Source of the DNA: a virus
DNA length: 44,095 nt
Strand: one strand, 5' to 3'
IMG/VR virus record: IMGVR_UViG_3300026521_000026
Coordinates: 1 to 44,095 of that record
This document shows, one piece after another, positions 9,312 through 42,227 of the stretch (position 1 is its first letter; every line of letters starts with the position of its first letter). A program made the translations under genes and the position numbers. The notes beneath the pieces were generated by a model. That model was given only the letters and a program-made list of their open reading frames with translations, was not told the origin of the DNA and did no database searches.

Positions 9312-10106
9312 TTATTTACACATACAACCTAAAGGCTGTTCTTCTTCTAGGTAATTAGTTGGTTTACCTTTATCTTCATAATCTTTAAATTTGGATACTA
9401 ATTCATCTATAGTGTATCCCTTAAATAAACTTACACCATACTCCCCAGCTATATACTTAGATTGGGTCTCTACTATATATGCCCACTGTTCTGGGTAATG
9501 CTTCCATAATTTATACAAACTAGATAATGATTGTTTAGGGCAATTAAAGCATCCTGTCCTATGGAAATGATTATATAGTGGATTATGTAACCCCATTTCT
9601 ACTAATCTAATAGCTATCTCGTCCTCTGTAATCTTCCACTCATCGTATAGTGGGTATAATTCACCTGTTTCTCTTATCCTATTAGGTTCATTATAAGCTA
9701 TACCTACATACTCTATAATCTCTGAGTCTTTGTATTTTTCTTTTAAATACTTCTTTAAAGGCTTAACCTTAACCTCCCTAGTACACCAACTCATTCCTAA
9801 ATGAAAAGGGAATCCTCTTTTCTTACCTTTATATTGACCTCTAGTATATGGTGTCTCTGCCCACTTATCCCATATCTCTTTACCTTTACCAAAGTTTAGA
9901 AGCGTTATAGTTATATCATATTTACTCTCCCAATATTCTTTTACTTTTAATATGTATTCATACATAATAGGAAACTCGTGACCTGTGTCACAAAATATAA
10001 CCTCATCTAAAGGATAGTTTAATTGTAATAATTTTTCAACCATATATGTACTATCTTTTCCACCTGACCAAGCAGCTATGTATACTTTTCTTTTCTCTAC
10101 TGACAC
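9312..10106 (-). CDS. PAPS reductase-family ATP pyrophosphatase
   Basis: The 264 aa protein has the PP-loop SGGKDSTYMVEKLL right at its N-terminus (residues about 14-27), IFCDTGHEFP after the second strand, WCTREVKVKPL in the middle, and paired cysteines (GCFNCP, GCMC) later. This fits the adenine-nucleotide alpha-hydrolase superfamily that includes CysH, CysD and DndC. A GTG start at 10106, with GAGGAG 8 bases upstream, is preferred over an earlier GTG that is too close to that site. It overlaps the nrdA stop by 10 bases. It may activate a substrate by adenylation in sulfur or nucleic-acid modification; no partner genes for DNA phosphorothioation are present. The substrate is unknown. Confidence 0.85.
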   Translation of the reverse strand: MSVEKRKVYIAAWSGGKDSTYMVEKLLQLNYPLDEVIFCDTGHEFPIMYEYILKVKEYWESKYDITITLLNFGKGKEIWDKWAETPYTRGQYKGKKRGFPFHLGMSWCTREVKVKPLKKYLKEKYKDSEIIEYVGIAYNEPNRIRETGELYPLYDEWKITEDEIAIRLVEMGLHNPLYNHFHRTGCFNCPKQSLSSLYKLWKHYPEQWAYIVETQSKYIAGEYGVSLFKGYTIDELVSKFKDYEDKGKPTNYLEEEQPLGCMCK

Positions 10107-11872
10107 GATAAACACTCCTCAACACCTATAATTTCTCTAGCTTTACTAGAACTATCAGCTCTTGTAGCAGCAGTGCTCCTACAATAATACAATGACTTCA
10201 AACCATTCTTCCAAGCTCTCATATGGATATTATATAAATTTCTAACATCCTCATCAGCTGGTAAAAACACATTAACACTCTGTGCTTGGTCTATACAAGG
10301 GGCCCTATCACAAGCTAAATCAATAGTTACAAACTGATTAATCTCAATTGCTGTTTTGAATACTTCCTTCTCATAGTCACTTAAGAAGTCCAAGTGTTGT
10401 ACTGAGCCTGCGTTCTTAATTATTGACTTCCAAATACCATCTAAGTAACTCTTACGAGACCTTAAACTTCTAGGATGTACTTCTTTAATATGCTTTTGTA
10501 GTAACTCTTCAAGATGCTTGTTCTTAATAGTATAACTGCCAATATTAGTTTTATGGATGTAACCATTAGCTAATCTAGGGTCTATCCCTTGACTTGTAGC
10601 TCCACAAAGAGTACTTATAGAAGCTGTAGGAGCAATACTTGTAATGTGTGTGTTTCTTTTGAATGTATTACAATCATAGCTTAAAGGGCACGGTTCAAAT
10701 AACTCTGCTGCTTTTTCATTAGCTTTATCTGTAGCTTCTTTAATGGCTTTAAATATCTGTAAGTTTAAACCTTTAGCCATAGGGCTTTCCCAAGATATCA
10801 TCTTACTTTGTAATAAACTATGGAAGCCCATCACACCAAGCCCTAAACTTCTCTCGTACATTGCAGACTTCCTAGCAGCCTCAAAGCCTGGCTTGTTTTC
10901 TGTAAGGTCTATGAAATCTTGTAGAACATTATCAAGAAAACGTGTTATATCATACACAATCTGTTCTAGGTTATCTTTGTACTCATCCCAGTATTCTAGA
11001 TTTAAACTCCCTAGACAACATACCCCAGTGTAATCAGGTGATGTATGGAGTGTAATTTCTGCACATAGGTTGCTTTGAGTTACTTCAAGACCTTTTAGTT
11101 TATATTCAGCAGGAGCTAAACGATTTACATTATCTTTAAATAACATAAAAGGCTCTCCAGTTTCCATCCGTGCTATTAAGATTTTCTTGAAGAGGTCAAA
11201 GGCATCTATTGTACTTACAACTTCTCCTGTTTTAGGACTTATAAGGTCCCAAGACTCTCTAGCTTCCACAGCTTCCATAAAACTATCAGGAATAACAACA
11301 CCGTGGTGCACGTTAAGGGAGCGTCTGTTCCCATCTCCAGTAGGTCTTCTAACATCTATAAACTCCTCAATCTCTGGGTGACTTACATCAAGATATACTG
11401 CCTGTGAGGCTCGTCGTAATCCTCCTTGACTGACGGCAAGTGTAGCACTATCACTAACCTTAATGAATGGGATAATACCTGAAGATTGTCCGTTAGAGCC
11501 AACCTGCTCTCCTATGGCTCTTACAGCACTCCAGGAAGTACCAATACCACCTCCTTCTGCTCCAAGCCAATTGTTCTCTGTAAATTTATCAAAGATGCCT
11601 TGTTTACTATCTTCAACTTGGTTCACATAGCAGCTTATAGGTAGTCCACGTTCTGAAGCTTTCCCGTTAGAAGCTACTGGCGTACTTGGGTGGAACCAAT
11701 AGTTGTTAATATAGTTTATAATACGCTCTGACATCTCGTCGTTATCTGAGAATTTACTCATACGTTTAACCCATTGTGAATAGGTTTCCCCTTCAAGGAA
11801 GTAACGTTCCTCATACATATCTTTTGAGAAGGCAGGTAAGCCTTCCCAACCTCTAGTGTGTTTCATTGACAT
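10097..11872 (-). CDS. nrdA: Ribonucleotide reductase class I, large (alpha) subunit
   Basis: The 591 aa protein converts ribonucleotides to deoxyribonucleotides. Active-site elements are present: Cys81 in ISCYVNQ, the catalytic NLCAE loop, GVCCLGS, the two radical-path tyrosines in LKSLYYCRS, and a C-terminal CLSC redox pair. It is far shorter than E. coli NrdA (761 aa) and starts in the catalytic region, so the N-terminal ATP-cone that senses dATP is missing. The ATG follows the stop of the HNH gene (TAAATG), with GAGGAG 10 bases upstream. Confidence 0.95.
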   Translation of the reverse strand: MSMKHTRGWEGLPAFSKDMYEERYFLEGETYSQWVKRMSKFSDNDEMSERIINYINNYWFHPSTPVASNGKASERGLPISCYVNQVEDSKQGIFDKFTENNWLGAEGGGIGTSWSAVRAIGEQVGSNGQSSGIIPFIKVSDSATLAVSQGGLRRASQAVYLDVSHPEIEEFIDVRRPTGDGNRRSLNVHHGVVIPDSFMEAVEARESWDLISPKTGEVVSTIDAFDLFKKILIARMETGEPFMLFKDNVNRLAPAEYKLKGLEVTQSNLCAEITLHTSPDYTGVCCLGSLNLEYWDEYKDNLEQIVYDITRFLDNVLQDFIDLTENKPGFEAARKSAMYERSLGLGVMGFHSLLQSKMISWESPMAKGLNLQIFKAIKEATDKANEKAAELFEPCPLSYDCNTFKRNTHITSIAPTASISTLCGATSQGIDPRLANGYIHKTNIGSYTIKNKHLEELLQKHIKEVHPRSLRSRKSYLDGIWKSIIKNAGSVQHLDFLSDYEKEVFKTAIEINQFVTIDLACDRAPCIDQAQSVNVFLPADEDVRNLYNIHMRAWKNGLKSLYYCRSTAATRADSSSKAREIIGVEECLSCQ

Positions 11873-12334
11873 TTAAGTATTCTCCTCAAAATCCTCTAAG
11901 TATTTGTAAGCTTTCTTCAAGCTCTCTGCTGTATCTCCTAATGATCCTATAGCTTGATTACATCTACGACATAAGACACCTCTAAACTTACCTGTGGTGT
12001 GACAGTGGTCGTAGCAGAACATAGAATTTGCATCTGTACCCTCTTTATTACCGCATATTTCACATACGTTACTTGAAGCCATAGCTATATCGTACTCTTC
12101 AGGTGTAATATCATATACCTTCTTAAGTCTTTTTCTCTTCGTTGATAATGCTACTTTTTCTCTATTATATTTTCTATAGTCTTTATCTTGTTTTCTTGTG
12201 CACACTTTACAGGCGCCTCTTAGTCCAGACTTAGTTAATTTACTTTTGTAAAACTCAGACTCTGGTAACTCAAAGCTACATTTCTTACACTTAATGAGTC
12301 TGGTACCAGTTAATTCCATCTTTTGCTTCTCCAT
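11873..12334 (-). CDS. HNH endonuclease, recombination endonuclease VII-like
   Basis: The 153 aa protein has a treble-clef/HNH core: CKKC and CKVC in the N-terminal half, then CEICGNKEG, FCYDHCHTTGKFRGVLC and CNQAIGSLGD, ending in the helix KKAYKYLEDFEE. This is the pattern of free-standing homing-type enzymes related to T4 endonuclease VII. It overlaps the 3' end of the DNA polymerase gene by 44 bases and stops just before nrdA, so it is wedged between two conserved replication genes. The likely role is to cut related phage genomes at this site and spread itself. It resembles the enzyme at 29912-30295. Confidence 0.9.
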   Translation of the reverse strand: MEKQKMELTGTRLIKCKKCSFELPESEFYKSKLTKSGLRGACKVCTRKQDKDYRKYNREKVALSTKRKRLKKVYDITPEEYDIAMASSNVCEICGNKEGTDANSMFCYDHCHTTGKFRGVLCRRCNQAIGSLGDTAESLKKAYKYLEDFEENT

Positions 12335-14132
12335 CTAATCTAATCCTAAAATTTAGTTTCTTTGTTATTATATGAAAGGCTTCTTCAGTAACCCTTTTAA
12401 ACTCTTCAACTATATCACCTCTGACTTCCCATTGGCACTCATCGTGGATTGAAAGTATCTGTTCGTAATCAACACCAGGTAGCCAACCTTTCTCTTCTTG
12501 AAATATTCTATCACACTCAACATTCCAATACTTGATAACAAGTGCCCCAGCCCCCTGGAGTAACACATTGAGTGCTGAGTGCTCGCTTCTAATGAAGTAA
12601 GGGTTTCCGTCAAGGGCTTTGAGAGTGCCTCGTGCTTTAACAGCTTTAACAACACTTTCTCCAAGTTTTGCGATTGCTGGGATTTTTCTAAGAAAGCGTT
12701 TCTTAAGCTTATCTCCCTCTTTAAAACCTCCTCCTACAATTTCTCCAAGCTTTGCTGCACCTGCTCCGTACAAAAACCCATATATAAATGTTTTAGCGTT
12801 ATCTCGCGTTGGTAATCCAGCAGCTTTTTGATTTGCTGAATGTATGTCTCCTTCAAGTATAGTTTTTCCATAAGCTCCTCCATCATATTTAGCCATATAG
12901 TGCGCTAATACACGAAGCTCCAAACCACTTGCGTCACACCCAACTATCTTGTAGCCTTCTTTAGCTTTAAATAAAGCCCTACACTCAGGACCCTTAAAAG
13001 CCCTTGGACTAGGCACTTGAGCCATATTAGGCCTACTATGAGTACATCTACGAGTTATAGCTCCCAATGTATCTACTTGCCCGTGGATACGTCCATCTGC
13101 TCTAACCTGCTTTAACCACGCCTGAGGGCCTAACGCCAATTGCCCTAATAATTTATTTACATTAAAGTAGTGAGCTAATACCTTAGCTTCAGGATACTCT
13201 AAGGAGTTTAAGACCCCTTCATTAACTATAGGGTTCCCTTTTTCTGTAAGCTCCTTAGGCTCCCATCCATAGAGTTCTCGTAACCAATATACAATATGTG
13301 CCCTAGAACTCGGATTAAACTCCGTAATTACATCAACTCCATAAACACCTTCTTTGTTATAGTAATAACCTTTGTCAATATGTTTCTGGTATGCAGCTGT
13401 AGGTGTTCCATCTTTCTTATATTTATTAAGAAGCTCATTCTTCTTTTGGAATATTGGAAGAGGCTTAAAGTTCTCGTGTACTAGAGTTGTAATTCGTTCT
13501 TTCTCTTCTTCAAGTTCTATGTGAAGCTTCTCAGCGGCTTTTACATCAAAGAGAACACCATATTGTTCTTGACGAGCTATGATGTGTGCAAAGTTCTGTT
13601 CAAGGTCTATAGCTTCCTTAGGGGGCAAACCTACTTCAAGAAATTTTTCATATATTGATTTCAAAACTTTAACATCTTGAAAACAATAATCAAACATCTC
13701 CTGATTAAGCTCTTCCCAGCCACCTGAATAATCATCTTTCATCGTTTTCAGTCTATAACCCCAAGCAGCTAATGAATGTCTTCCTTTAAGTTTAGGGGGC
13801 ATACTTCTTCGTCTACTATCTAGTTTAGTCGTATCAGGATATAACAACTTACTTATAATTAAAGTATCTAACGTAGCAATAGATGGAATATCTATGTTAT
13901 ATAGCTTTCGTAACACCATATTATCATATTTAATACCATTATGAGCTACTACTTTCGTAGCTGTTTGTAATAACTTTAACATATCTTCAATTGTACCATC
14001 AGTGCCTTTAAGAGGTTTTGAGCTGAAACCTAACCATTTATCTTCCTCTACTATATAACAAACCCCACAGTGTATTTTCGTAACATCTAACAGTAGATTA
14101 TCCGTTTCTAAATCATATAATATAGTCTTCAT
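12291..14132 (-). CDS. DNA polymerase, family A (T7 gp5-like)
   Basis: The 613 aa replicative polymerase combines a 3'-5' exonuclease (MKTILYDLETDNLL, with Asp and Glu metal ligands) and a polymerase domain. Motif A is GCDASGLELRVLAHYMA, motif B is LPTRDNAKTFIYGFLYGAG (nearly identical to T7) and motif C is SIHDECQWEV. T7 gp5 has 704 aa, so the loops are shorter here, including the thumb region where T7 binds thioredoxin; whether a host factor is used is open. The ATG overlaps the stop of the upstream HNH gene (ATGA). Confidence 0.97.
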   Translation of the reverse strand: MKTILYDLETDNLLLDVTKIHCGVCYIVEEDKWLGFSSKPLKGTDGTIEDMLKLLQTATKVVAHNGIKYDNMVLRKLYNIDIPSIATLDTLIISKLLYPDTTKLDSRRRSMPPKLKGRHSLAAWGYRLKTMKDDYSGGWEELNQEMFDYCFQDVKVLKSIYEKFLEVGLPPKEAIDLEQNFAHIIARQEQYGVLFDVKAAEKLHIELEEEKERITTLVHENFKPLPIFQKKNELLNKYKKDGTPTAAYQKHIDKGYYYNKEGVYGVDVITEFNPSSRAHIVYWLRELYGWEPKELTEKGNPIVNEGVLNSLEYPEAKVLAHYFNVNKLLGQLALGPQAWLKQVRADGRIHGQVDTLGAITRRCTHSRPNMAQVPSPRAFKGPECRALFKAKEGYKIVGCDASGLELRVLAHYMAKYDGGAYGKTILEGDIHSANQKAAGLPTRDNAKTFIYGFLYGAGAAKLGEIVGGGFKEGDKLKKRFLRKIPAIAKLGESVVKAVKARGTLKALDGNPYFIRSEHSALNVLLQGAGALVIKYWNVECDRIFQEEKGWLPGVDYEQILSIHDECQWEVRGDIVEEFKRVTEEAFHIITKKLNFRIRLDGEAKDGINWYQTH

Positions 14133-14506
14133 TTCTTATGATGCCCTTGTCTTTTAGTTTCTATAGCGTGACAGTTAGCGCATAAAATTCTACATTTAGC
14201 TATCTCAGCTATAACTCTGCGCTTAGCTACTTTCATATCTTGAGATATTACAAATTCCTTATCCGAAGGATTAATATGGTCAAATTGTAATGCTTCTGGT
14301 GCTTTATTATACCCACATATATTACATCCACTCTTCATTTTGATATTATCTAACCACCTCCTACGCTCTTGCATTTTAACTAACTGTTTTTCTTTCTCCT
14401 TAGACCCTATCCGTTGACACTTCCTACTACAATACTTATGACTGTAATTAGTCATTTTAAATTCTGAACTACATACAGGACATATTGATACTCTACCTGT
14501 ATCCAT
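14129..14506 (-). CDS. HNH endonuclease between primase-helicase and DNA polymerase
   Basis: The 125 aa protein begins MDTGRVSICPVC, chosen because GAGGAGG lies 9 bases upstream and the ATG then falls just after the helicase stop; longer frames would overlap that gene. It has CPVC and CSRKC zinc pairs, CNICG, then LQFDHINPSDKEF and CRILCANCHAIET, which form the HNH core. Its stop overlaps the polymerase ATG. It looks like a free-standing homing endonuclease that has landed precisely in a gene junction. Confidence 0.88.
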   Translation of the reverse strand: MDTGRVSICPVCSSEFKMTNYSHKYCSRKCQRIGSKEKEKQLVKMQERRRWLDNIKMKSGCNICGYNKAPEALQFDHINPSDKEFVISQDMKVAKRRVIAEIAKCRILCANCHAIETKRQGHHKK

Positions 14507-14507
14507 C

Positions 14508-16124
14508 TTAAAAATCCTCCTCTTCACTTTCATCAGGTAAAATACCATCTATCTCATCACTCTCAAGTAGTGTCCCAGTATCTACATCATATCTAAAACC
14601 TATAGTCTTACCAGTAGCTTGCCCACTGAACCTATCTTTGATAATCCTAATAAGTCCTTTTTGACGCTCTTCAATCTCTTCGTGGATTGTATTACGCTCT
14701 ACACCTAACATAAGAGCAGACCATCTCATAATAGCCCTTGAACCTGTGAATTGATTTTGTTCAACCTTACCGCCAGCTTCGTGGCTCGGGCCCTTCTTAG
14801 GGGGATTAAGGTGACTTACAAGTAATATCCATATATTTAGTTCCTGAGCTAAACCTGCGACCTCAGCCATAAGCTTATCAAGGTTTCTACGCTCATCCTC
14901 AGCAGCTGCATTAAGAGCCGTTAAGTTGTCTATATAGAAGTATTCAACTCCGTAGTTATGGTGTAAGAATTTAATCTTTGATTGTATTACCTCCCAATCT
15001 ATCATACCGAAGTTATCATAAATATAAAGGCCTTGCATACTATCTATAGTATCTCCAAGCTTCTTAGCGTCTGTTTGTTGGTTAGGTAAATGATAAAAAC
15101 ATCCATCAACTTTACCAGCAATCCTTAAGAGTGTTTCTCTTGTTGATTGTTCCAACATAAAACTAGCTACTTTGTAACCTTGCTTTAAATCATAGGCAAT
15201 TGATGTCATTACAACATCTGTTTTACCTACAGATACTCCAGCTCCTAAGGACACTACCTCACCTAAGCGTCTCCCATATGTAACTTCTGTAAGTCTCTCA
15301 AAGAACCACGGACGCCCTATCTCAACTGGCTTTAAAGCTTCTTCTTTAATCTCGCTAGGTAGTAATATACCATCAGGTTTATATGGTTCTGCATTATAAA
15401 ACGTATTGATTAGAGCTGATTTACCTTTATTTACTAAAAGCTCATTAGCATCCTTAAACTCTGAATGTCTTACTATTCTAACCTTGCCTATTGGTAGGAT
15501 ATTAATTACATCATCAATAGCCTTACGTCCTGGTTCATCATTATCAAACCATAGGTAAATTTCTTCAAAACTACTAATCCACTCAAGGTGTCTTGCAATT
15601 TCCTTTTTAGCGCTTTGTGCACCGGAAGATAGACTTACAACAGGATATTTACCATCAAAAGCTGTAGCAACTGAGAGAGCATCTAACTCCCCCTCAGTTA
15701 TTGTAAGTTTCTTACCGCCTGAGCTCCATAGTTGCTGGCCATACATCATAGCCTCTTTAGTATCTCCAAGAAACTTAAAGGTTTTATCTGCAAAACGAAT
15801 TTTCTGAGCAACTGGTTTCTTATCCTTGTCATAATAAGTAGCTACTTGACATACTTTACCACCTAGAGTACCTACACCATATTTGTATTGCTTTACAATA
15901 GCCTCAGGTATCTTACGTGACTTAAGGTCCTGAGTCTCATATGGAATCATACCCAACTTCTTAACATTTGTAGATTGTGTTGTAATTCCTTCACCTGTCG
16001 GAGGACTCCAGCTTTCACAAGCGAAGCAATAGGAGCTACCGTTACTATATAACGCACGCCCATCACTAGAACCACACTCACTGCAAGCAATATGTTTAAC
16101 AAACTCGCTCTCATTCTGTTCCAC
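14508..16124 (-). CDS. DNA primase-helicase (T7 gp4-like)
   Basis: The 538 aa protein joins three parts. The zinc finger is CSECGSSDGRALYSNGSSYC with FAC (residues about 14-40). The TOPRIM primase has LTITEGELDAL and YLWFDNDEPGRKA. The hexameric RecA-like helicase has GAGVSVGKTD (Walker A), EYFYIDNLTAL (Walker B) and ILLVSHLNPP. It unwinds the fork and makes primers for the gp5-like polymerase. The start is a GTG at 16124, with GAGGAGG 7 bases upstream, and it lies within the preceding small gene. T7 gp4A has 566 aa. Confidence 0.96.
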   Translation of the reverse strand: MEQNESEFVKHIACSECGSSDGRALYSNGSSYCFACESWSPPTGEGITTQSTNVKKLGMIPYETQDLKSRKIPEAIVKQYKYGVGTLGGKVCQVATYYDKDKKPVAQKIRFADKTFKFLGDTKEAMMYGQQLWSSGGKKLTITEGELDALSVATAFDGKYPVVSLSSGAQSAKKEIARHLEWISSFEEIYLWFDNDEPGRKAIDDVINILPIGKVRIVRHSEFKDANELLVNKGKSALINTFYNAEPYKPDGILLPSEIKEEALKPVEIGRPWFFERLTEVTYGRRLGEVVSLGAGVSVGKTDVVMTSIAYDLKQGYKVASFMLEQSTRETLLRIAGKVDGCFYHLPNQQTDAKKLGDTIDSMQGLYIYDNFGMIDWEVIQSKIKFLHHNYGVEYFYIDNLTALNAAAEDERRNLDKLMAEVAGLAQELNIWILLVSHLNPPKKGPSHEAGGKVEQNQFTGSRAIMRWSALMLGVERNTIHEEIEERQKGLIRIIKDRFSGQATGKTIGFRYDVDTGTLLESDEIDGILPDESEEEDF

Positions 16125-22544: not shown

Positions 22545-22730
22545 TTAATTTTTTATTACTTCTAATAACTCATTACAAGTTATCTCCCATCCATAGTGAT
22601 TTATAGTGTTTAAAGCTTTCACAAACTCTCTCACAGTCATATCACAGGACACCTCCAGGTATTCTAAAAGAAACTCCCAGTCATTACGTAACCTAATTTC
22701 TAGTATGATATCTCTAGTATCAATACTCAT
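22545..22730 (-). CDS. Unknown 61 aa early protein
   Basis: This is an acidic helical protein (MSIDTRDIILEIRLRNDWEF to NELLEVIKN) with segments VREFVKALNTINHYGW and ITCNELLEVI. The ATG at 22730 overlaps the 3' end of the metallopeptidase gene by 11 bases and has a weak GAGAG site. An upstream ATG at 22754 would give 69 aa with more overlap. No family is recognised. Confidence 0.65.
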   Translation of the reverse strand: MSIDTRDIILEIRLRNDWEFLLEYLEVSCDMTVREFVKALNTINHYGWEITCNELLEVIKN

Positions 22731-23628
22731 AATAACTCTCGCTATAAATACCATATTCCTCTAACAAGGCAGTTACATCACAACCTAAAGAAGCTAGTTC
22801 ATCTTTTAAAACTCTGTTTTCAGCCTCAAGCTCTTGTAGATACCAAGCATCATTATCGTAACCATAATCAAAGCTGTTGTAGCTTACCTCTGGAGTATAT
22901 GGTTTATCAGGTAGCTCTAAGGCCTTCAAGACCTCTAAAGTATCCACCATACACTTAACATATATAACTTCATCTTTAGAGTGCTCTTTATCATAGCCTA
23001 CCGATAGAGTACAACAAGCAATACTATCATTCGCAAGCTCTGAGGCATCTGTAACAGACCCAAGAGTCTCAGAGTATCCTAGAGCTACAAAAGTATCTGT
23101 TAGCTCTCTGTTATCGTAACCATATAATGCAACCTCTTGAGCTCCTTTAGGGGAACGTCTATCAAGGCCAATATAACACGTTGTATTAATTACAACATTT
23201 AAAGCTTCACTTTCTAAGCTAAAACAATAAGAGCCGTGACACCCTATCTCCTCATCCTCAAAGAAACCTATATTGTATTTGAAATTGTTTGTAGCTTCCA
23301 TATGCTCTATAAGCTTCAAAGCAATCCAAACACCTGCTCTATCATCACCGCCTAAACAGCTTAAAGAACTGTTAGGATTTAGAGCAATTACACCAAGGTT
23401 TTCGTCGTACTCAAAATCTTCAAAAGTAGTTTTGAGCTCTTTAGTAACTGAATGTGTGTTTATAGTATCAAGATGAACACATAGCATAGGCTTTGGTTTA
23501 TCATCTTTAGCGTATATAAGGTACCTATCGCCCTTATATAGTGTTGGAAGTGAGGCCTCAATATCATCTTTTAAAGTTGCTTGAGAGGCTACAAGAACCT
23601 CCAATAGTTCATTTACAATAGTTTTCAT
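22720..23628 (-). CDS. M20/M28/M42-type zinc metallopeptidase
   Basis: The 302 aa protein shows the full co-catalytic metal set: His52 and Asp54 in CVHLDTI, Asp95 or Asp96 in LGGDDRAGVWIAL, the Glu126-Glu127 pair in FFEDEEIG, Asp156 in IGLDRRSP, and His216 in YDKEHSK. This is the clan MH arrangement of aminopeptidases and peptidase T-like enzymes. The C-terminal 80 residues (acidic, Tyr-rich, ending in a coiled coil) are not part of the fold. The start is the ATG at 23628, preceded by AAGGAAAG. The substrate is unknown; early expression suggests cleavage of host peptides or use of amino acids, not lysis. Confidence 0.82.
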   Translation of the reverse strand: MKTIVNELLEVLVASQATLKDDIEASLPTLYKGDRYLIYAKDDKPKPMLCVHLDTINTHSVTKELKTTFEDFEYDENLGVIALNPNSSLSCLGGDDRAGVWIALKLIEHMEATNNFKYNIGFFEDEEIGCHGSYCFSLESEALNVVINTTCYIGLDRRSPKGAQEVALYGYDNRELTDTFVALGYSETLGSVTDASELANDSIACCTLSVGYDKEHSKDEVIYVKCMVDTLEVLKALELPDKPYTPEVSYNSFDYGYDNDAWYLQELEAENRVLKDELASLGCDVTALLEEYGIYSESYYEY

Positions 23629-23638
23629 TCTGCTTTCC

Positions 23639-24919
23639 TTAATCTTCATTGTGTTCATAGTAAGCGTCTTCAGACGACCAATAAGTATCTGAAGAAGCGT
23701 CATAGTATATACCATCATCGTGATAATAGTAGCAATCTAAATCTTTAATATAATATACTGTAGTCTCTTTTGACACATCTATACTAATATCATCACACCA
23801 AACTACATTATCTGCATCTGAGTAATACACCCCTAGGTCTTCAACCCAATAAAGCTCGTCATTAGTTGCCCACCAAGTCTCTGTATCTTCAGTGAAGTAA
23901 CAACTATCTTTAAAACGATACTCATCAGCATCTTCAACATAACATATAGTATCATTATATTGAGAATAATACCCATTTTCACAAAACACAATATCGTCAT
24001 CATAGTAATGATACACCTCTAGGTCTTCAACCCAATAACAATCATCTTCGTCCCTATAGTCCTCAATATCACTACACCATACTTCATTTTCTCCGCAACT
24101 TCTTTCAGAGATACCACAGTTATCGTCGGAATTTCCTTTAGTAGATTGTAGAATATCAACCATAGAGAGATTGGTCTCCTCAACCCCATTGTAATTAGCT
24201 AGCTTGTAGCTATCACCACATACCTCTAAAACATAGTACATTGTATCTACGTAAGGGACCTCAGGAACGCTTCCAGTAGTCTGTAAGGTTTCTAAGGGAA
24301 GTTCATTAGCAATTTTAACATCTAAGTACCCATTCTCTTCCTCCCATTTTTGTAAAGTAATCTTATAGACCTCTCTCTCATAAAATATTCTATCCATAAA
24401 GGATATCTTCTCATTAGTAAGAGTATTTACAACATTATCAGGCCATAAGATAGCACGTGCTTTTAATAAACCATCGTCCCCTAATATGTAAGCTATTTTA
24501 CAACCTAAGTTCTCGTATATTTCCATACGATGTCCAAAATGAGCCATACAGCTACCACCACAGGAACTTATATCATAGACAGATTGTATATCGTCAGATA
24601 CTATAACTCTTGAAGTATCTGCGCTGTAAGCGGCTTTCCACTTATTTACAGCATCCTCTATCTCAAGAGGAGTAAGACTAGGACATAGCTGACCTAATAG
24701 TTTACCTAGTTTTAGCTTCTGGGCTCTGTTATGAAGCCAGAAGTCGCCAGAGGGACCGTTTTTAATATAATGGTCTACGGTGGAATTTAATGACTTATCT
24801 GTATTAATTTGGTAAATATCCCCATTATTATAAGCTAGCGTATCTAAATCACAATTTATACTGCAAATATCAAGTATTCTAAAATAAGTGCTAAAACTTA
24901 TAAACAAACTGCTTCCCAT
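23639..24919 (-). CDS. Large acidic, aromatic repeat protein of the early region
   Basis: The 426 aa protein has two parts. Residues about 90-210 contain SSCGGSCMAH, YENLGCKIAYILGDDGLL and a KARAILWP strand. A similar serine-cysteine-Met and Arg-Ala pattern occurs in phage proteins of unknown function. Residues about 265-426 are repeats of a roughly 20-residue unit in the style YWVEDLEVY, CYVEDADEY, CYFTEDTET, YWVEDLGVY and YYIKDLDCY, separated by DD-rich turns. This half is extremely rich in Asp, Tyr, Glu, Trp and Cys. The start has AAGGAGGTG 6 bases upstream. An acidic early protein could act as a nucleic-acid mimic or binding scaffold, but there is no direct evidence. Confidence 0.85.
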   Translation of the reverse strand: MGSSLFISFSTYFRILDICSINCDLDTLAYNNGDIYQINTDKSLNSTVDHYIKNGPSGDFWLHNRAQKLKLGKLLGQLCPSLTPLEIEDAVNKWKAAYSADTSRVIVSDDIQSVYDISSCGGSCMAHFGHRMEIYENLGCKIAYILGDDGLLKARAILWPDNVVNTLTNEKISFMDRIFYEREVYKITLQKWEEENGYLDVKIANELPLETLQTTGSVPEVPYVDTMYYVLEVCGDSYKLANYNGVEETNLSMVDILQSTKGNSDDNCGISERSCGENEVWCSDIEDYRDEDDCYWVEDLEVYHYYDDDIVFCENGYYSQYNDTICYVEDADEYRFKDSCYFTEDTETWWATNDELYWVEDLGVYYSDADNVVWCDDISIDVSKETTVYYIKDLDCYYYHDDGIYYDASSDTYWSSEDAYYEHNED

Positions 24920-24921
24920 AA

Positions 24922-25416
24922 TTACACCTCCTTAGAGTGGCGGAATGCCACTGCTTTATCCATAGAGATACCAAATTCTCTATCACATTTCTGCCAATAA
25001 TATACAGCCTCTTTAGTAACCCCATATAGCTCTGCAACTTCTTTAGGCGTCTTACCCATCTTTAGAAGTGTTAAGGCCTCTATGCGCTCTCTTAACGTTG
25101 AGCGTGGTGTAGGTTTGTTTTTATTACGCCCTACATCAGAGCGTAACTTACTAAAGTATGCTGGACTAATCCCTAGAAGCTTTGAGACTACGTTATCATT
25201 TAACGTGTAATCCTTACATATAGCGTCTAAATCATCTAATATCTCATTAGAGAGTAACCACTCATTTACAAATGGATTAGCTAATATAGCTTTTCTAGAA
25301 GCGTTAATAAATACTCTAAAAGCATTTAAGCGGTGTTTGAAGACCTTACGGTTTGTAAGGACTTGTTTCTTTGTTATCTTATCAATAGATAAGAGAGTAA
25401 TGTCTTTAGTTTTCAT
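24922..25416 (-). CDS. Early protein with two helix-turn-helix segments
   Basis: The 164 aa basic protein has a first HTH-like segment at residues 73-93 (NDNVVSKLLGISPAYFSKL) and a second at about 108-145 (ALTLLKMGKTPKEVAELYG, then VTKEAVYYWQK). The second is typical of resolvase or transposase-type DNA-binding helices. The N-terminal 60 residues are basic and helical. It is the first gene after promoter P2, so it is expressed when phage polymerase is active. A transcription regulator or a host take-over factor is plausible. No enzyme domain is seen. Confidence 0.8.
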   Translation of the reverse strand: MKTKDITLLSIDKITKKQVLTNRKVFKHRLNAFRVFINASRKAILANPFVNEWLLSNEILDDLDAICKDYTLNDNVVSKLLGISPAYFSKLRSDVGRNKNKPTPRSTLRERIEALTLLKMGKTPKEVAELYGVTKEAVYYWQKCDREFGISMDKAVAFRHSKEV

Positions 25417-28200: not shown

Positions 28201-29925
28201 CTATCTAAAGGATTTTAACCCTTTAAGAGCCTTAGACCTAGAGGACCCAAAAGGAGCCTTAAAGTTCCCTGGGTTCTTCTTGTAGTTCAATCTAAACTGT
28301 TTTAATTGTTCATCTAATTGACGTTCTTTATAGCGTTGTAATGCTACATCTATGTTCTGGTCTAGTATATCACGTTCTAACCAATAACTAACTGCTAAAG
28401 CTAATACATCTAGTCTATCATCGTGACGTAGTGATTGTCTATCCCTTGTTATATGTGATAATTGAAATAACAAACTATACATCATATTGGTAGGCTCACG
28501 TAACCCATAGGCTACATCGTTACTACAAGAGCTGTAGTTAACTACAAGACGATGTTGGTTCATTATAGGTTCTAGTGTATCTATAATCCTAACTTCTTTT
28601 TGTATACTAACCTTAACCTCTTCAATATTACAAGGATACACTGAGTTCATTATAGGAGCTAATAATGATGAAAACATACCATCTCCAAAGTTAGCTTCCA
28701 CATAAACTTCATTGACTTTATACTTCTTAGCTATCCTAGAGAGTCTCATAAGATTAGCTTCGTTATATCCACCTTTTATACCACCAAAATCCAATACATA
28801 TAGACGTCCAAGTAAATGTGCTACAACACACCATCCCATTTCATCTGTACCTGTACCAGCAGGGTCAATTGCTAAAATCACACCCTCATAAGGTTTAGTA
28901 TCATCTGATTGTGTTCCTGGCCTATGGAGTTTATCCCCTCTAAACCCTACATTAGGTATCTCTTGTATTTCTTTAGAAGCCTCAGAGCTCCAGGTAATAC
29001 TTGCAGGACCGTTGAAATCATCAAGGTCTGTTACGATTAAATCTTTAAGTTTCAAAGGATACTTCTCGGCATCACTTAATGTTGTATCTAGCATAAATTG
29101 TAATTTAAAACCTGAGCGTCCATAACGGTTCTCACGCATTATAAGGTCTTCCTCAGTAAATCTAGGCTCTGTAGTAGTCCCTATTATATCAGGGTCCCTA
29201 TGCATCTTCTCAACCATATAAGGAGCTAAGCATCCTTCATAGATTGAAGTCTCTTCAGGGTACCTTGCAGGGAATATACGTGTTACATAACCATCTTCCC
29301 TGAAGCCATTGTAAATAGACTCAGCAGACTGTGGTGTACCTAATACAAGTATTTGAGCACCTTCAGTAGTCTGTAAGATAGCTTCAAATTCTGCTGTAGC
29401 ATTACGTAACTGTTCACGCCTCATCTCTGTAGCAGAGTTCTGTTGTCCTTCAACATCATCAGATATTAATAGTGATGCACGGTTACCTTGTAACTGACTT
29501 GTAATACCTAAGGCTCTTAGTGAAGGCTGTACAGATACCTCACAACCATTTACATCAAAGCTGGTAGTTGAGGTACGATGTCCTTTACTCATATCAGGCT
29601 TAAGGTGTTCTAAGATAGGCATAGACTCTATAAGACGTCTGATGAATATAGCAATATTATCAGAGTGCCCTCCTGATTGTGATACAATAAGTATCTTCTC
29701 GTTAGGGTCCCTTAAGAGTCTCCAAGCAGCATAAGCACCTGTAATCCACGTCTTACCTGCCCCACGTAATGCTTGTAGCACACTTCTAGAGTTATTCTCT
29801 TGCAGAAAATCTGCCATATGATATTGTAATTCACTAGGTTCAGGTAACCTTAAGTGACTCCAAGTTAGCTTTAAGAAAACCTTAAAGTCACTTAATGCTA
29901 ATAATTCTAATTTATTCTTTTCCAT
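28201..29925 (-). CDS. Terminase large subunit (T7 gp19-like)
   Basis: The 574 aa packaging motor (T7: 586) has an ATPase domain with Walker A QALRGAGKTWITGAYAAWR and Walker B ASLLISDDVEG, and a RNase H-like nuclease with ILAIDPAGTGTDEMGW and RHDDRLDVLALAVSYW. It moves DNA into the prohead through the portal and cuts concatemers at the ends. The ATG at 29925 with a GAAAGG site is preferred over a TTG five codons earlier. It overlaps the HNH gene by 14 bases and is the last gene of the late operon. Confidence 0.96.
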   Translation of the reverse strand: MEKNKLELLALSDFKVFLKLTWSHLRLPEPSELQYHMADFLQENNSRSVLQALRGAGKTWITGAYAAWRLLRDPNEKILIVSQSGGHSDNIAIFIRRLIESMPILEHLKPDMSKGHRTSTTSFDVNGCEVSVQPSLRALGITSQLQGNRASLLISDDVEGQQNSATEMRREQLRNATAEFEAILQTTEGAQILVLGTPQSAESIYNGFREDGYVTRIFPARYPEETSIYEGCLAPYMVEKMHRDPDIIGTTTEPRFTEEDLIMRENRYGRSGFKLQFMLDTTLSDAEKYPLKLKDLIVTDLDDFNGPASITWSSEASKEIQEIPNVGFRGDKLHRPGTQSDDTKPYEGVILAIDPAGTGTDEMGWCVVAHLLGRLYVLDFGGIKGGYNEANLMRLSRIAKKYKVNEVYVEANFGDGMFSSLLAPIMNSVYPCNIEEVKVSIQKEVRIIDTLEPIMNQHRLVVNYSSCSNDVAYGLREPTNMMYSLLFQLSHITRDRQSLRHDDRLDVLALAVSYWLERDILDQNIDVALQRYKERQLDEQLKQFRLNYKKNPGNFKAPFGSSRSKALKGLKSFR

Positions 29926-30295
29926 AATAACCTTTCTCAATTAAGTAACTATAGGCTTTCTTTAAGATACTCGGAGAGTCTCCAAGATGCCCTAATCCTA
30001 TATTACAACCTTGACATAATAAACCACGTACTTCACCATTACTATGATTATGGTCTGTGTGCATATCTTTAGCGTCTATGTGTTGACCACAACACCCACA
30101 CCTACCATTCTGTTCAACATACATCTGGTTCCATTCTTCTAATGTGATGTTGTATGTGTTTTGATAGTAGTTGTTTTTATTGTTATGGTATCTCTCTGTT
30201 TCTCTAGATGAGTAACAGCTCTTACAAACACCTCGGTTCTTATAGAACTCTAAGGTACTCTTATGTTCTTTACATATCCTACAAGTTTTCTTCAT
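29912..30295 (-). CDS. HNH endonuclease, endonuclease VII-like, between TerS and TerL
   Basis: The 127 aa protein has CRIC and CKSC in the first 30 residues, then CGCCGQHID, MHTDHNHSNGEVRGLLC and CNIGLGHLGD, finishing in a KKAYSYLIEKGY helix. The order and the DHxHxxGxxRGLLC core match the enzyme at 11873-12334, so the two are probably related. It sits between the two terminase genes and overlaps the TerL start. A homing-type enzyme is likely; nicking enzymes of this kind near terminases can also help packaging in some phages. GGAGG lies 14 bases upstream of the ATG, further than usual. Confidence 0.88.
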   Translation of the reverse strand: MKKTCRICKEHKSTLEFYKNRGVCKSCYSSRETERYHNNKNNYYQNTYNITLEEWNQMYVEQNGRCGCCGQHIDAKDMHTDHNHSNGEVRGLLCQGCNIGLGHLGDSPSILKKAYSYLIEKGYYGKE

Positions 30296-36594: not shown

Positions 36595-37266
36595 TTAGCC
36601 TGTAGTAGTAGCAGTAGAACTACTCCCACCTGTAGCGCTATTAATAGATGTACCTAAAGATACACCACTTGCTACACCACCTACTGTACTTGAAATAACA
36701 CCTGCAGACCCACTAGATGTACTATAAGCCCAATTACGTACTTCTTGGTTGTTAGCTGCATTAATGCTATTAGATAAATCAATACCTACATTCATCTGTT
36801 CAGACTCATAATCCATCCGCATCATTTCAAGATTATCACCTATCTTTCTATGAGTTGCTTCAGCTCTCTGAACAAGTGTATCTTTCTTCATCTCTGCTTG
36901 AATTGATTGTGCTATTTTCATACGCTCTGCTAGACGTCCTTCAAGATGCTTAGTAGCTAAAGCATTCTCTAACTTTCCTGAAGCAGCTGCAAGTTGCATT
37001 GTGAAATCTGTAAGCTCCACTGAGAGAGCTTGATTAACCTCTTGGTTTGTATCGTGTATCTTATCTGTTTTTATATTAAACCTACGTAATAACTCTGCTT
37101 TACGTGCTTCGTTATTCTTAGTGGCTAAATCACGACTCCTATTAGCTGCCATCATATTATTTGTATTTTGAGCACTAGCTCTTCTATCAGCTGCCTTGTT
37201 AGACTCACTTGCTGCATAGTAACTAGCACCTCCAATTACAACCGCTGCTGTTATCGCTGCCGACAT
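36595..37266 (-). CDS. Internal virion protein (T7 gp14-like)
   Basis: The 223 aa protein starts with a short hydrophobic stretch (AAITAAVVIGGASYYAA), then long helices rich in Ala, Arg and Gln, and a low-complexity Ser/Gly/Thr tail. T7 gp14 (196 aa) is similar in size and forms the outer-membrane pore of the ejectosome. The gene overlaps the end of the cupin-SET gene by 16 bases and precedes the gp15-like gene. Confidence 0.8.
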   Translation of the reverse strand: MSAAITAAVVIGGASYYAASESNKAADRRASAQNTNNMMAANRSRDLATKNNEARKAELLRRFNIKTDKIHDTNQEVNQALSVELTDFTMQLAAASGKLENALATKHLEGRLAERMKIAQSIQAEMKKDTLVQRAEATHRKIGDNLEMMRMDYESEQMNVGIDLSNSINAANNQEVRNWAYSTSSGSAGVISSTVGGVASGVSLGTSINSATGGSSSTATTTG

Positions 37267-37997
37267 ATATATCCTTTCAAACTATCTCTATAATCAAAGA
37301 GTATCTCTTGGCCCTCTTTAATATCTTTAATTGCTATTACATTATTACCTATAATCTGAGCATTCTTATTAGGTGAATGATTAACATAACGTCCTAAAGC
37401 TGTTCTATAATTACCTACAATAGCTTTATCAATAGAACACCCTTTACTATAAGACTTCTTTGTAAATACACCCATCTCTCCTGGGAGTATCTCAGACTCT
37501 TTTACAATATAATCAACACCTTCTAGCTCTGTTTGGATTACATTATCAATCTGAACATATTGCTGTACAATGTCCTCAGTTAAGTTATACTCTAATAACA
37601 TCTTATTGTAATCCATACGTGCCTTATAGGACTCTAAGTTTTCCGAAAAGAGCTCTTGCTCAGCCTCTTCAACTGTTGTAGCATCTGTTCTAAAAACATT
37701 AACCCATACAACATCTGTAATAGCCAAACCTACTTTCTGAACTCCAGGACCACTTACGAATACCTGAGGTGCTTTGAGCTCTACAGCTTCATCACCATTA
37801 CCAACAACTATTGTACCTTCTGTAAGAAGATTGAAACACGATGTTGTATGTGTAGCTCCTACCGCTAGAGTTCCTTCGTGTACAAACATCTCTCTACAAT
37901 ACATACCATCTAAGAAGTAATGTTTAGTAGGGGGCTCATAACTCGCCGGGTGTTTCACAAGCTCATCAACTATATTAGCTGTTGTAAGTTCTTTCAT
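37251..37997 (-). CDS. Cupin-like plus SET-domain fusion protein
   Basis: The 248 aa protein has two domains. Residues about 22-115 are a beta-barrel (YCREMFVHEGTLAVGATH, NLLTEGTIVVGNG, APQVFVSGPGVQKVG) resembling a phage cupin-like family. Residues about 162-240 are a short SET domain: GEMGVFTKKSYSKG, the GRYVNHSPNKNA signature (NHSPN at 206-210), and IKEGQEILFDYRDSL with the catalytic-type Tyr236. SET proteins transfer methyl groups from S-adenosylmethionine to lysine. The pre-SET part is minimal. The partner or target is unknown; a virion or host protein is possible. It lies between the lysis genes and internal virion genes. Confidence 0.8.
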   Translation of the reverse strand: MKELTTANIVDELVKHPASYEPPTKHYFLDGMYCREMFVHEGTLAVGATHTTSCFNLLTEGTIVVGNGDEAVELKAPQVFVSGPGVQKVGLAITDVVWVNVFRTDATTVEEAEQELFSENLESYKARMDYNKMLLEYNLTEDIVQQYVQIDNVIQTELEGVDYIVKESEILPGEMGVFTKKSYSKGCSIDKAIVGNYRTALGRYVNHSPNKNAQIIGNNVIAIKDIKEGQEILFDYRDSLKGYICRQR

Positions 37998-40685: not shown

Positions 40686-42227
40686 TTAATTTCCTATAAC
40701 AAATATTGAAAAATCTCTATCATAAGATACATTATCGTCCCTATCAACAGAGAAACCTGTAGTGGTTAAAGCATCTACCCCAAAATCTGTACCTATATCT
40801 GCATTTCCATCATTATCTATGGTAGTCAAATGAGCTATTAGTGCATTATTAGGGAATGCTATAGGGAATGTAAAGTCCTCAGAGCTATCAGCAGTTGAGG
40901 TGAAAATACAATGTAAATGTATCAAGCCACTAGGAAACCTCTGTAACACATAGTTATCTCCAACTTCTAAATAAAAATCAGCAGGTAATCCTCTAAGTAA
41001 ATCAGCATCTAAGCCACTACCATCACCATCAACTTCTTTAATTTTTTCTAGTAAATCACTTGTTGTAAGTTTAGTATCTAATAAATCGTCAGCCTCTGTT
41101 TTATTATATACTTCAGCTTTACTATAAGTATCTGCAACACTAAAAGTACCATAGGCTACAACATCTATAACATCACCTTCAGAAGCTCCATCAGATAATA
41201 CAACCTTAGTCCCATCACTTACATCAACTTCGTCACCATTAACTAGTTTACACCCATTAAGAAATACATCAGCATAGCTAGCATCATAACCCCCTGTGAT
41301 TGTAAATTCTGTTTGGTCTGCTTCAGCTGTGAATGTTTCACGTTTACTAGTACCATTAACAGTAGAGCCAACAGATAACCATAGTTCATTATCAGCATCA
41401 TACTCTCTCATTTCAGCTTTGACATCTGTTAGTTCTGTTTGGAAATAAAGGTCACCTGCTTGTAGAGGGGTACCATCATTTCTAGTTGTAGGAGCCTCTG
41501 ATTTAGGTCCTTGATAAATGTCAGCAAAGTAAGTTACATCATCAACATTGTTTGCTATTGTATTTACATTGGCTATTGAAGTAGCTACAGTATCTACAGA
41601 ACTTATATGAGTTGCTGTAGTATCTATGTTAGTTATAGAAGCATAAAGTCTATCAAGAGTAGCTTTGTCATTATATAAGCTGTCAAGTGTAGTCTTATCA
41701 GCAAACAAACTATCAAGTGTAGCTTTATCAGTAAACAAACTATCAAGAGTAGCTTTATCATTGTATAGACTATCAAGAGTAGTTTTATCAGTAAATAAAC
41801 TATCAAGAGTAGTTTTATCAGCGAACAAGCTTTCTATAGCTTCTTTATCACCTGCAACAGTTATAATCTCATCTTTAATACTATTACATATAGTTACAGC
41901 ATCAAGGTTATTAGCTACAAATACAACCTCATCAAGTTTAGCTGCTACATTTGTAACAGCACTTGGTGGAACATCAAGACCTTCCCCATCACTTGATACA
42001 CTAACCTTAACAACTTGGCCTACAGCTGGTGGTGTTTTAAATACAATACTATTGTTAATAATATCCCACTCACTAGGAGGCACAAAGTGGTCTGTAGCAT
42101 CTGTAGCTCCTTCATCAACATAATAAAGGTCAACTCTAGCGTGACTCTCAGACAATATAGGAGATATTACAGTAAATATTCTACTTGTACCATCTCCATC
42201 AAAGTTCTCAACATATGGAACTGCCAT
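40686..42227 (-). CDS. Tail fibre protein
   Basis: The 513 aa protein starts VPYVENFDGDGTSRIFTV and ISPILSESHARVDLYYVDEG, the T7 gp17-type N-terminal domain that attaches to the tail. Residues 131-193 hold six 10-residue repeats of the form FADKTTLDSL, then a shaft (TFTAEADQTEFTITGG domain with FLNGCKL, about 300-360) and a C-terminal head with YVLQRFPSGLIHLH and FPIAFPNN, like the gp53-type receptor-binding tip. Fibre tips decide host range, so the last 130 residues are the most likely to vary between strains. Confidence 0.88.
   Translation of the reverse strand: MAVPYVENFDGDGTSRIFTVISPILSESHARVDLYYVDEGATDATDHFVPPSEWDIINNSIVFKTPPAVGQVVKVSVSSDGEGLDVPPSAVTNVAAKLDEVVFVANNLDAVTICNSIKDEIITVAGDKEAIESLFADKTTLDSLFTDKTTLDSLYNDKATLDSLFTDKATLDSLFADKTTLDSLYNDKATLDRLYASITNIDTTATHISSVDTVATSIANVNTIANNVDDVTYFADIYQGPKSEAPTTRNDGTPLQAGDLYFQTELTDVKAEMREYDADNELWLSVGSTVNGTSKRETFTAEADQTEFTITGGYDASYADVFLNGCKLVNGDEVDVSDGTKVVLSDGASEGDVIDVVAYGTFSVADTYSKAEVYNKTEADDLLDTKLTTSDLLEKIKEVDGDGSGLDADLLRGLPADFYLEVGDNYVLQRFPSGLIHLHCIFTSTADSSEDFTFPIAFPNNALIAHLTTIDNDGNADIGTDFGVDALTTTGFSVDRDDNVSYDRDFSIFVIGN
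41640..41837 (-). repeat. 30-bp tandem repeats in the tail fibre gene
   Basis: About six copies of a 30-bp unit encode the 10-residue repeat (F/Y)(A/T/N)DK(T/A)TLDSL. The copies are very similar to each other at DNA level, which suggests recent expansion. The units probably form a trimeric coiled-coil or triple-helical shaft, so copy number would change fibre length. Confidence 0.88.

Follow-up and report, generated by a model that had tools for sequence, protein, structure and literature searches.

What does the gene directly upstream of the peptidase gene in this phage do, and which part of its product is likely to carry the function? The window (the whole stretch of DNA that was analysed, a virus record of 44,095 bases) comes from a T7-like podovirus, with genes for a single-subunit RNA polymerase, a family A DNA polymerase, a head–tail adaptor, a major head protein and terminase. 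The original prediction centered on the acidic, repetitive C-terminal part of the encoded protein and offered as candidate roles a DNA mimic, an inhibitor of a host defense nuclease or a metal-binding protein. The repeat is of secondary importance. The conserved parts are a domain that precedes it, the SC domain, and the adjoining peptidase gene, which that first reading had not connected with it.

The 426 aa reading frame was confirmed over exactly the proposed interval (Table 1); it runs on the minus strand, which had not been mentioned. The ribosome site, described beforehand as very strong, is indeed a strong one. The gene order on the minus strand is helix-turn-helix gene, SC gene and, after the 10 nt gap, peptidase gene. 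The T7-type RNA polymerase gene lies downstream of the SC gene, whose description as early rests on this position. A promoter scan was uninformative in this respect, promoter-like sites being no commoner than in shuffled sequence. The matching gene position in the KP34/PhiM1-like phages is termed early (PMC6115819).

Table 1. Features of the SC gene, its product and its neighbors. Positions are those of the window.
Feature	Position	Strand	Extent in protein	Comment
Helix-turn-helix protein gene (P0006)	24922..25416	minus	164 aa	upstream; ends just before the SC start
Shine–Dalgarno AAGGAGG	24927..24933	minus		7 nt before the ATG; read from sequence
SC-domain protein gene (P0001)	23639..24919	minus (24919→23639)	426 aa	ATG start
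Conserved SC domain, GNAT-like by predicted fold	24185..24724	minus	residues ~66-245	
S123-C124-M125 signature	24545..24553	minus	residues 123-125	S and C invariant in 74/74 non-redundant members
Acidic/aromatic β-hairpin repeats	23642..24109	minus	residues 271-426	about ten, 15–16 aa each
M28/M42/M20-type metallopeptidase gene (P0005)	22720..23628	minus	302 aa	starts 10 nt after the SC stop codon; 5' end taken as the ATG at 23628

The SC protein family and its core

Direct searches with the window protein gave no Pfam or NCBIfam match, no significant PDB sequence match and one PHROG match at E 0.25, and a degenerate-pattern scan with this protein alone gave no match. Tblastn found remote relatives in phage genomes of 635 kb. 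Aligned with one another, 11 distant members proved too divergent to serve for scanning. IMG/VR yielded 162 candidate stretches, and the SCM profile collects 84 members that are non-redundant at 70% identity. Further members occur in crAss-like Cellulophaga phages, in Thermus phage TSP4 and in more megaphages, where a single genome can have up to 15 matching places; the genomes carrying the domain thus range over T7-like, crAss-like, Thermus and 635–735-kb phages. When the genomes of 84,980 bacterial and archaeal species were scanned, only three relatives appeared, so the family is essentially a phage family. No credible Pfam match was found in any of the 58 members scanned, and their PHROG matches were few, weak and unnamed. 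In keeping with the original prediction, no confident match to a virion or enzyme family appeared in the searches. As judged by sequence comparison, the window protein is a member of a previously undescribed phage protein family.

The conserved residues are concentrated in the core. Y115, S123, C124, R155 and W159 are found in all 74 aligned members, D176 in 73 and R177 in 71, and P222 and D225 are present in 73/73 of the aligned SC-domain members. The window copy has the marks of the SCM type, namely S-C with a Y before it, R on β3, W159, D-R-x-[YF] on β4 and P-x-x-D, together with a same-strand adjacent gene for an M28/M42-type peptidase. It deviates from the SCM-type family at R66, G108 and Y179 (F). 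In some large phages (loci L026, L031, L035, L039 and L083), three to four SCM paralogs without a tail (313-384 aa) stand in tandem, always directly after a protein of ~350 aa of unknown type.

The core is predicted to have the topology beta-alpha-alpha-beta-beta-beta-alpha, and the top PDB matches to the model of the window protein are GNAT-fold proteins (RimI-like, TacT3, KacT, AtaT and malonyl-CoA decarboxylase). These matches are weak, the best having E 0.015 and TM 0.36 to the target, and all have E above 0.001. The acetyl-CoA loop of GNAT motif A (Q/R-x-x-G-x-G/A) sits between β4 and α3. In the SC family consensus, that glycine-rich loop (R/QxxGxG/A) is absent after β4 (MDRIY...). The resemblance to the GNAT superfamily, as in RimI or TacT, is therefore one of core topology and of the proteins that dominate the PDB matches, whereas the SC core differs in lacking the loop, in its E values and in having an invariant Cys instead. 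Because the likeness is weak and the loop absent, the core could be something other than a transferase, and we take "GNAT-like", which comes from the model, as a lead and not as membership.

Two other groups of phage proteins resemble the SCM type. KP34 gp10, phrog_6980 and phrog_13313 are conserved hypothetical early proteins of T7-like phages of Klebsiella, Vibrio and Pectobacterium. They occupy the equal gene position beside the same peptidase family, carry the SCM signature, ARA...R-x-Y and PYLD in the same order, and have C-terminal tails of zinc knuckles and WSDYHGAYV-type hairpins. They differ in their length of 655-713 aa, with a long unrelated N-terminus, and are too diverged to be detected by the SCM profile. 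The SCH type (phrog_18912), found in Enterococcus phage H1 and metagenomic phages, likewise flanks the same peptidase and shares the SC motif, the Arg on β3, R-x-Y on β4, the predicted order of helices and strands and a tandem knuckle tail. It differs in reading SCH and not SCM, in keeping CxxC pairs in its tails, and in that pairwise homology of the cores is not significant. In hhalign comparisons of SCM with the KP34 or SCH types, the P values of 0.006 and 0.026 are suggestive but not significant alone, one reversed control giving 0.022. The types have in common the order of motifs and their placement on the predicted secondary structure: [G/P]xD before α1, SC before α2, R on β3 and R-x-Y ending β4. 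Foldseek matches the window model to BFVD models of uncharacterized phage proteins, for example of KpV48 and DE17, with lengths that fit the family. Motif order, secondary-structure register, Foldseek matches, tails and gene context together suggest that the SCM, SCH and KP34 types share an origin. A role in the virion is conceivable, since the KP34-like record fHeKpn01 bears the label "putative structural protein" at the match; in the CB5 paper, however, the matching gene is absent from the structural genes.

Linkage with the peptidase gene

The product of the adjoining gene matches Pfam M42 above cut-off and the PHROG peptidase phrog_4191 at 6e-26. All of its metal and catalytic residues are kept: H52 and D54 (HxD), D95/D96, E126-E127, D156 and H216. 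None of HxD, D, EE, D and H varies among nine divergent members. The partner is thus apparently an active di-metal aminopeptidase or amidase of the M28/M42 type, as far as its residues can tell. The likeness to the M28/M42/M20 peptidase families and the ligands belong to this partner gene, not to the SC protein. The peptidase has an otherwise variable C-terminal extension in which, in the same nine members, one Trp is invariant in a GY-x-N-x-W-like setting; the SC protein could dock at this motif. In the literature available to us, we found nothing on the function of phage-encoded M28/M42 peptidases. The KP34 and PhiM1 papers give the pair as a conserved early hypothetical protein and a putative peptidase, with no link drawn between them.

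Loci were gathered by two peptidase-seeded scans, and the genes neighboring the peptidase were then clustered. One neighbor cluster spans 86 loci and comprises the SCM family and a second variant of 61 members, the SCH type, which BLAST links to SCM proteins. An SC gene lies within 300 bp of the peptidase at 59 of 67 non-redundant loci of the window type and at 14 of 57 of the megaphage type. By our estimate, a single SC gene placed at random in a phage of ~60 genes would be adjacent in about 3% of cases. Neighboring SC and peptidase genes are on the same strand in 72/73 instances, and the SC gene is the upstream one in 45 and the downstream one in 28. The pair is carried by cultured phages such as KP34 (gp10-gp11), VP93 (gp6-gp7), PPWS2, AV102, Enterococcus H1, Cellulophaga phi40:1, Thermus TSP4, and Pseudomonas C171 and Ep4. 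Eight loci have SC genes on both sides of the peptidase (L005, L212, L215, L217, L222, L223, L233 and L269), and Enterococcus phage H1 (L101) also has an SC-peptidase-SC arrangement as judged by motif.

Comparison with relatives allows the descent of the pair to be set against that of the RNA polymerase. Both genes are present in relatives whose RNA polymerases are 83, 72 and 69% identical to that of the window. In a relative at 74%, neither SC nor peptidase is found anywhere in the 43.7-kb record; that phage keeps the helix-turn-helix gene, and other reading frames fill the space up to the ligase-like gene. In the 83% relative, the SC proteins are only 45% identical and the peptidases 54%, which is about what is seen in a 73-kb phage without such an RNA polymerase (48% and 55%). 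Since both genes are missing from a sister phage, and since the pair has diverged further than the RNA polymerase has, the two genes appear to have been exchanged as a unit. The case from sequence that the pair moves as a unit is strong, if not absolute because records may be incomplete. In large phages, both genes also occur alone, and many SC paralogs are solitary or in tandem arrays away from the peptidase. SC paralogs that are far from any peptidase imply that SC can act without it.

The acidic tail and its replacements

The two properties originally claimed for the tail, repetition and extreme acidity, both hold. Its 156 residues contain 30% D+E, 22% Y/W/F and 5% Cys, with a pI of 4.05 and a net charge of about -41; the remainder of the protein has an unremarkable composition. 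Self-similarity is maximal at lags of 16, 15, 31 and 8, and the observed maximum was reached by 0/2000 shuffles. Structure prediction had been proposed as a check on the repeat half, and AlphaFold2 (58 sequences) supports a regular repeat, with paired strands or β-hairpins at the repeat period over residues 279-351 (pLDDT about 85-93). The confidence is poor after residue 355, with pLDDT < 50 over 355-394.

Elsewhere in the family, the tail may consist of acidic hairpins, DnaJ-like CxxCxGxG arrays or LIM-like zinc knuckles, or it may be missing (28/73). At a single locus, a Cysteiniphilum member (L090) unites a core of the SCM type with a complete zinc-knuckle tail, and the peptidase gene overlaps it; CxxC/CxxH zinc ligands are present in the tails of this relative and of L086 and L224. 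AlphaFold2 models an SCH-type relative (pLDDT 88.8) with hairpin units in the same strand order as in the window tail, and the best PDB matches of the SCH-type zinc-knuckle relative are tandem LIM proteins. For the window tail, hairpins are modeled, the paired CxxC/CxxH zinc ligands of a LIM domain are absent, and the LIM matches in the PDB came only for the zinc-bearing relative. In an alignment made by eye, the window segment VWCSDIEDYRDEDD matches up with TWCESCQEYYANED of L224. On this by-eye basis, we infer that the window tail may be a LIM-like knuckle array stripped of most of its cysteines, with acidic and aromatic residues instead. The zinc-knuckle relatives could plausibly bind metal, as had been suggested for the window protein, but from the latter most CxxC pairs have disappeared.

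The suggestion of a DNA mimic fares worse, since homologs at the same locus carry zinc-knuckle, DnaJ-like or other tails, or none. Because the acidic tail is swapped or dropped in this way, acidity is not a conserved property. The conserved negative surface of a DNA mimic was not found, as the charge varies among homologs at the locus. The acidic tail looks like a cysteine-poor docking tail, not a DNA mimic.

Possible functions of the pair, and other genes in the window

From the family, the linkage and the intact peptidase site, all of which are observed, we infer that the SC protein and the peptidase act on the same class of substrate, probably jointly on some molecule of the host or of the phage. 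Our first-ranked reading, to which we give a probability of roughly 0.4, is that the SC gene is half of a two-gene accessory module of the early region, pairing a Cys-using GNAT-like transferase with a di-metal amidase. The SC core would use Cys124 to transfer or hold an acyl or aminoacyl group, or would position a peptide, and the peptidase would cleave an amide or an N-terminal residue. The variable SC tail, whether hairpin or zinc knuckle, would be the docking surface, with the acidic form binding either partner or target. Such a module might serve host takeover or counter-defense in the phase preceding DNA replication; no anti-phage defense model in PADLOC was matched by the pair. It is doubtful, if conceivable, that the pair amounts to an unrecognized and widespread phage system of covalent modification, in which a loop-less Cys-using enzyme of GNAT fold and a di-metal amidase would work with interchangeable target-choosing tails and be exchanged as a module among T7-like phages, crAss-like phages and megaphages.

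Ranked second is a substrate adaptor, in which the GNAT-like core would be a pseudo-enzyme and the tail would grip a host protein and present it to the peptidase for trimming. The CoA loop missing from the SC consensus fits such a role, as do the adjacency of the peptidase, the C-terminal extensions with an invariant Trp that the peptidases bear, and tails that resemble LIM protein-interaction modules and vary like host-interaction surfaces. However, the full conservation of a Cys, two Args and an Asp within the core points to a site of chemistry, and SC paralogs without a tail are common; we regard the adaptor as unlikely, though it is the closest competitor. The pair might instead recycle nutrients by degrading peptides or modified amino acids, with SC handling acylamino-acids or aminoacyl-tRNA. 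M28/M42 enzymes are general aminopeptidases, the GNAT fold includes aminoacyl transferases and tRNA-acetylating toxins, and such toxins are among the PDB matches. But tails of a protein-interaction kind would then be superfluous, and there is no link to genes of amino-acid metabolism, so this seems improbable. Less probable still is an inhibitor–enzyme or toxin–antitoxin-like pair, with SC, for example, shielding the cell from the peptidase. This would suit the close linkage of the genes, their shared gain and loss and their short or overlapping junctions, but early-region pairs in lytic phages rarely need an antitoxin, both gene orders and SC-peptidase-SC arrays occur, and each gene is found alone in large phages. 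The least probable is the DNA mimic or host-nuclease inhibitor, for which the charge of the tail is regularly spaced, but which has against it the replacement of that tail at the same locus and the position of the conserved residues outside it.

The pairing with the SC gene would explain why small lytic phages have an M28/M42 peptidase gene, which has been annotated for years without a role. Unknowns filed separately as phrog_6980, phrog_13313 and phrog_18912, and a family that had not been filed, become one recurring gene pair. Several hundred cultured phages with known sequences have it, among them the much-studied Klebsiella phage KP34, so its function is directly testable.

Several other genes in the window, all leftwards, are of some interest. 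A PAPS-reductase-like protein (9312-10115) is encoded between two ribonucleotide reductase-like genes. Three small reading frames (11873-12334, 14129-14548 and 29912-30295) are HNH-type endonuclease-like by motif, as seen by eye only, and adjoin polymerase, primase/helicase-like and terminase genes. A tail-fiber-like protein (40686-42227) has a tandem repeat of the "TTLDSLYNDKA" type and a gp53-like C-terminal domain. A 248-aa late-region protein (37251-37997) resembles phage tail-fiber PHROGs in its N-terminal half and has a C-terminal SET methyltransferase-like domain (PF00856, above cut-off), which is unusual in a phage.
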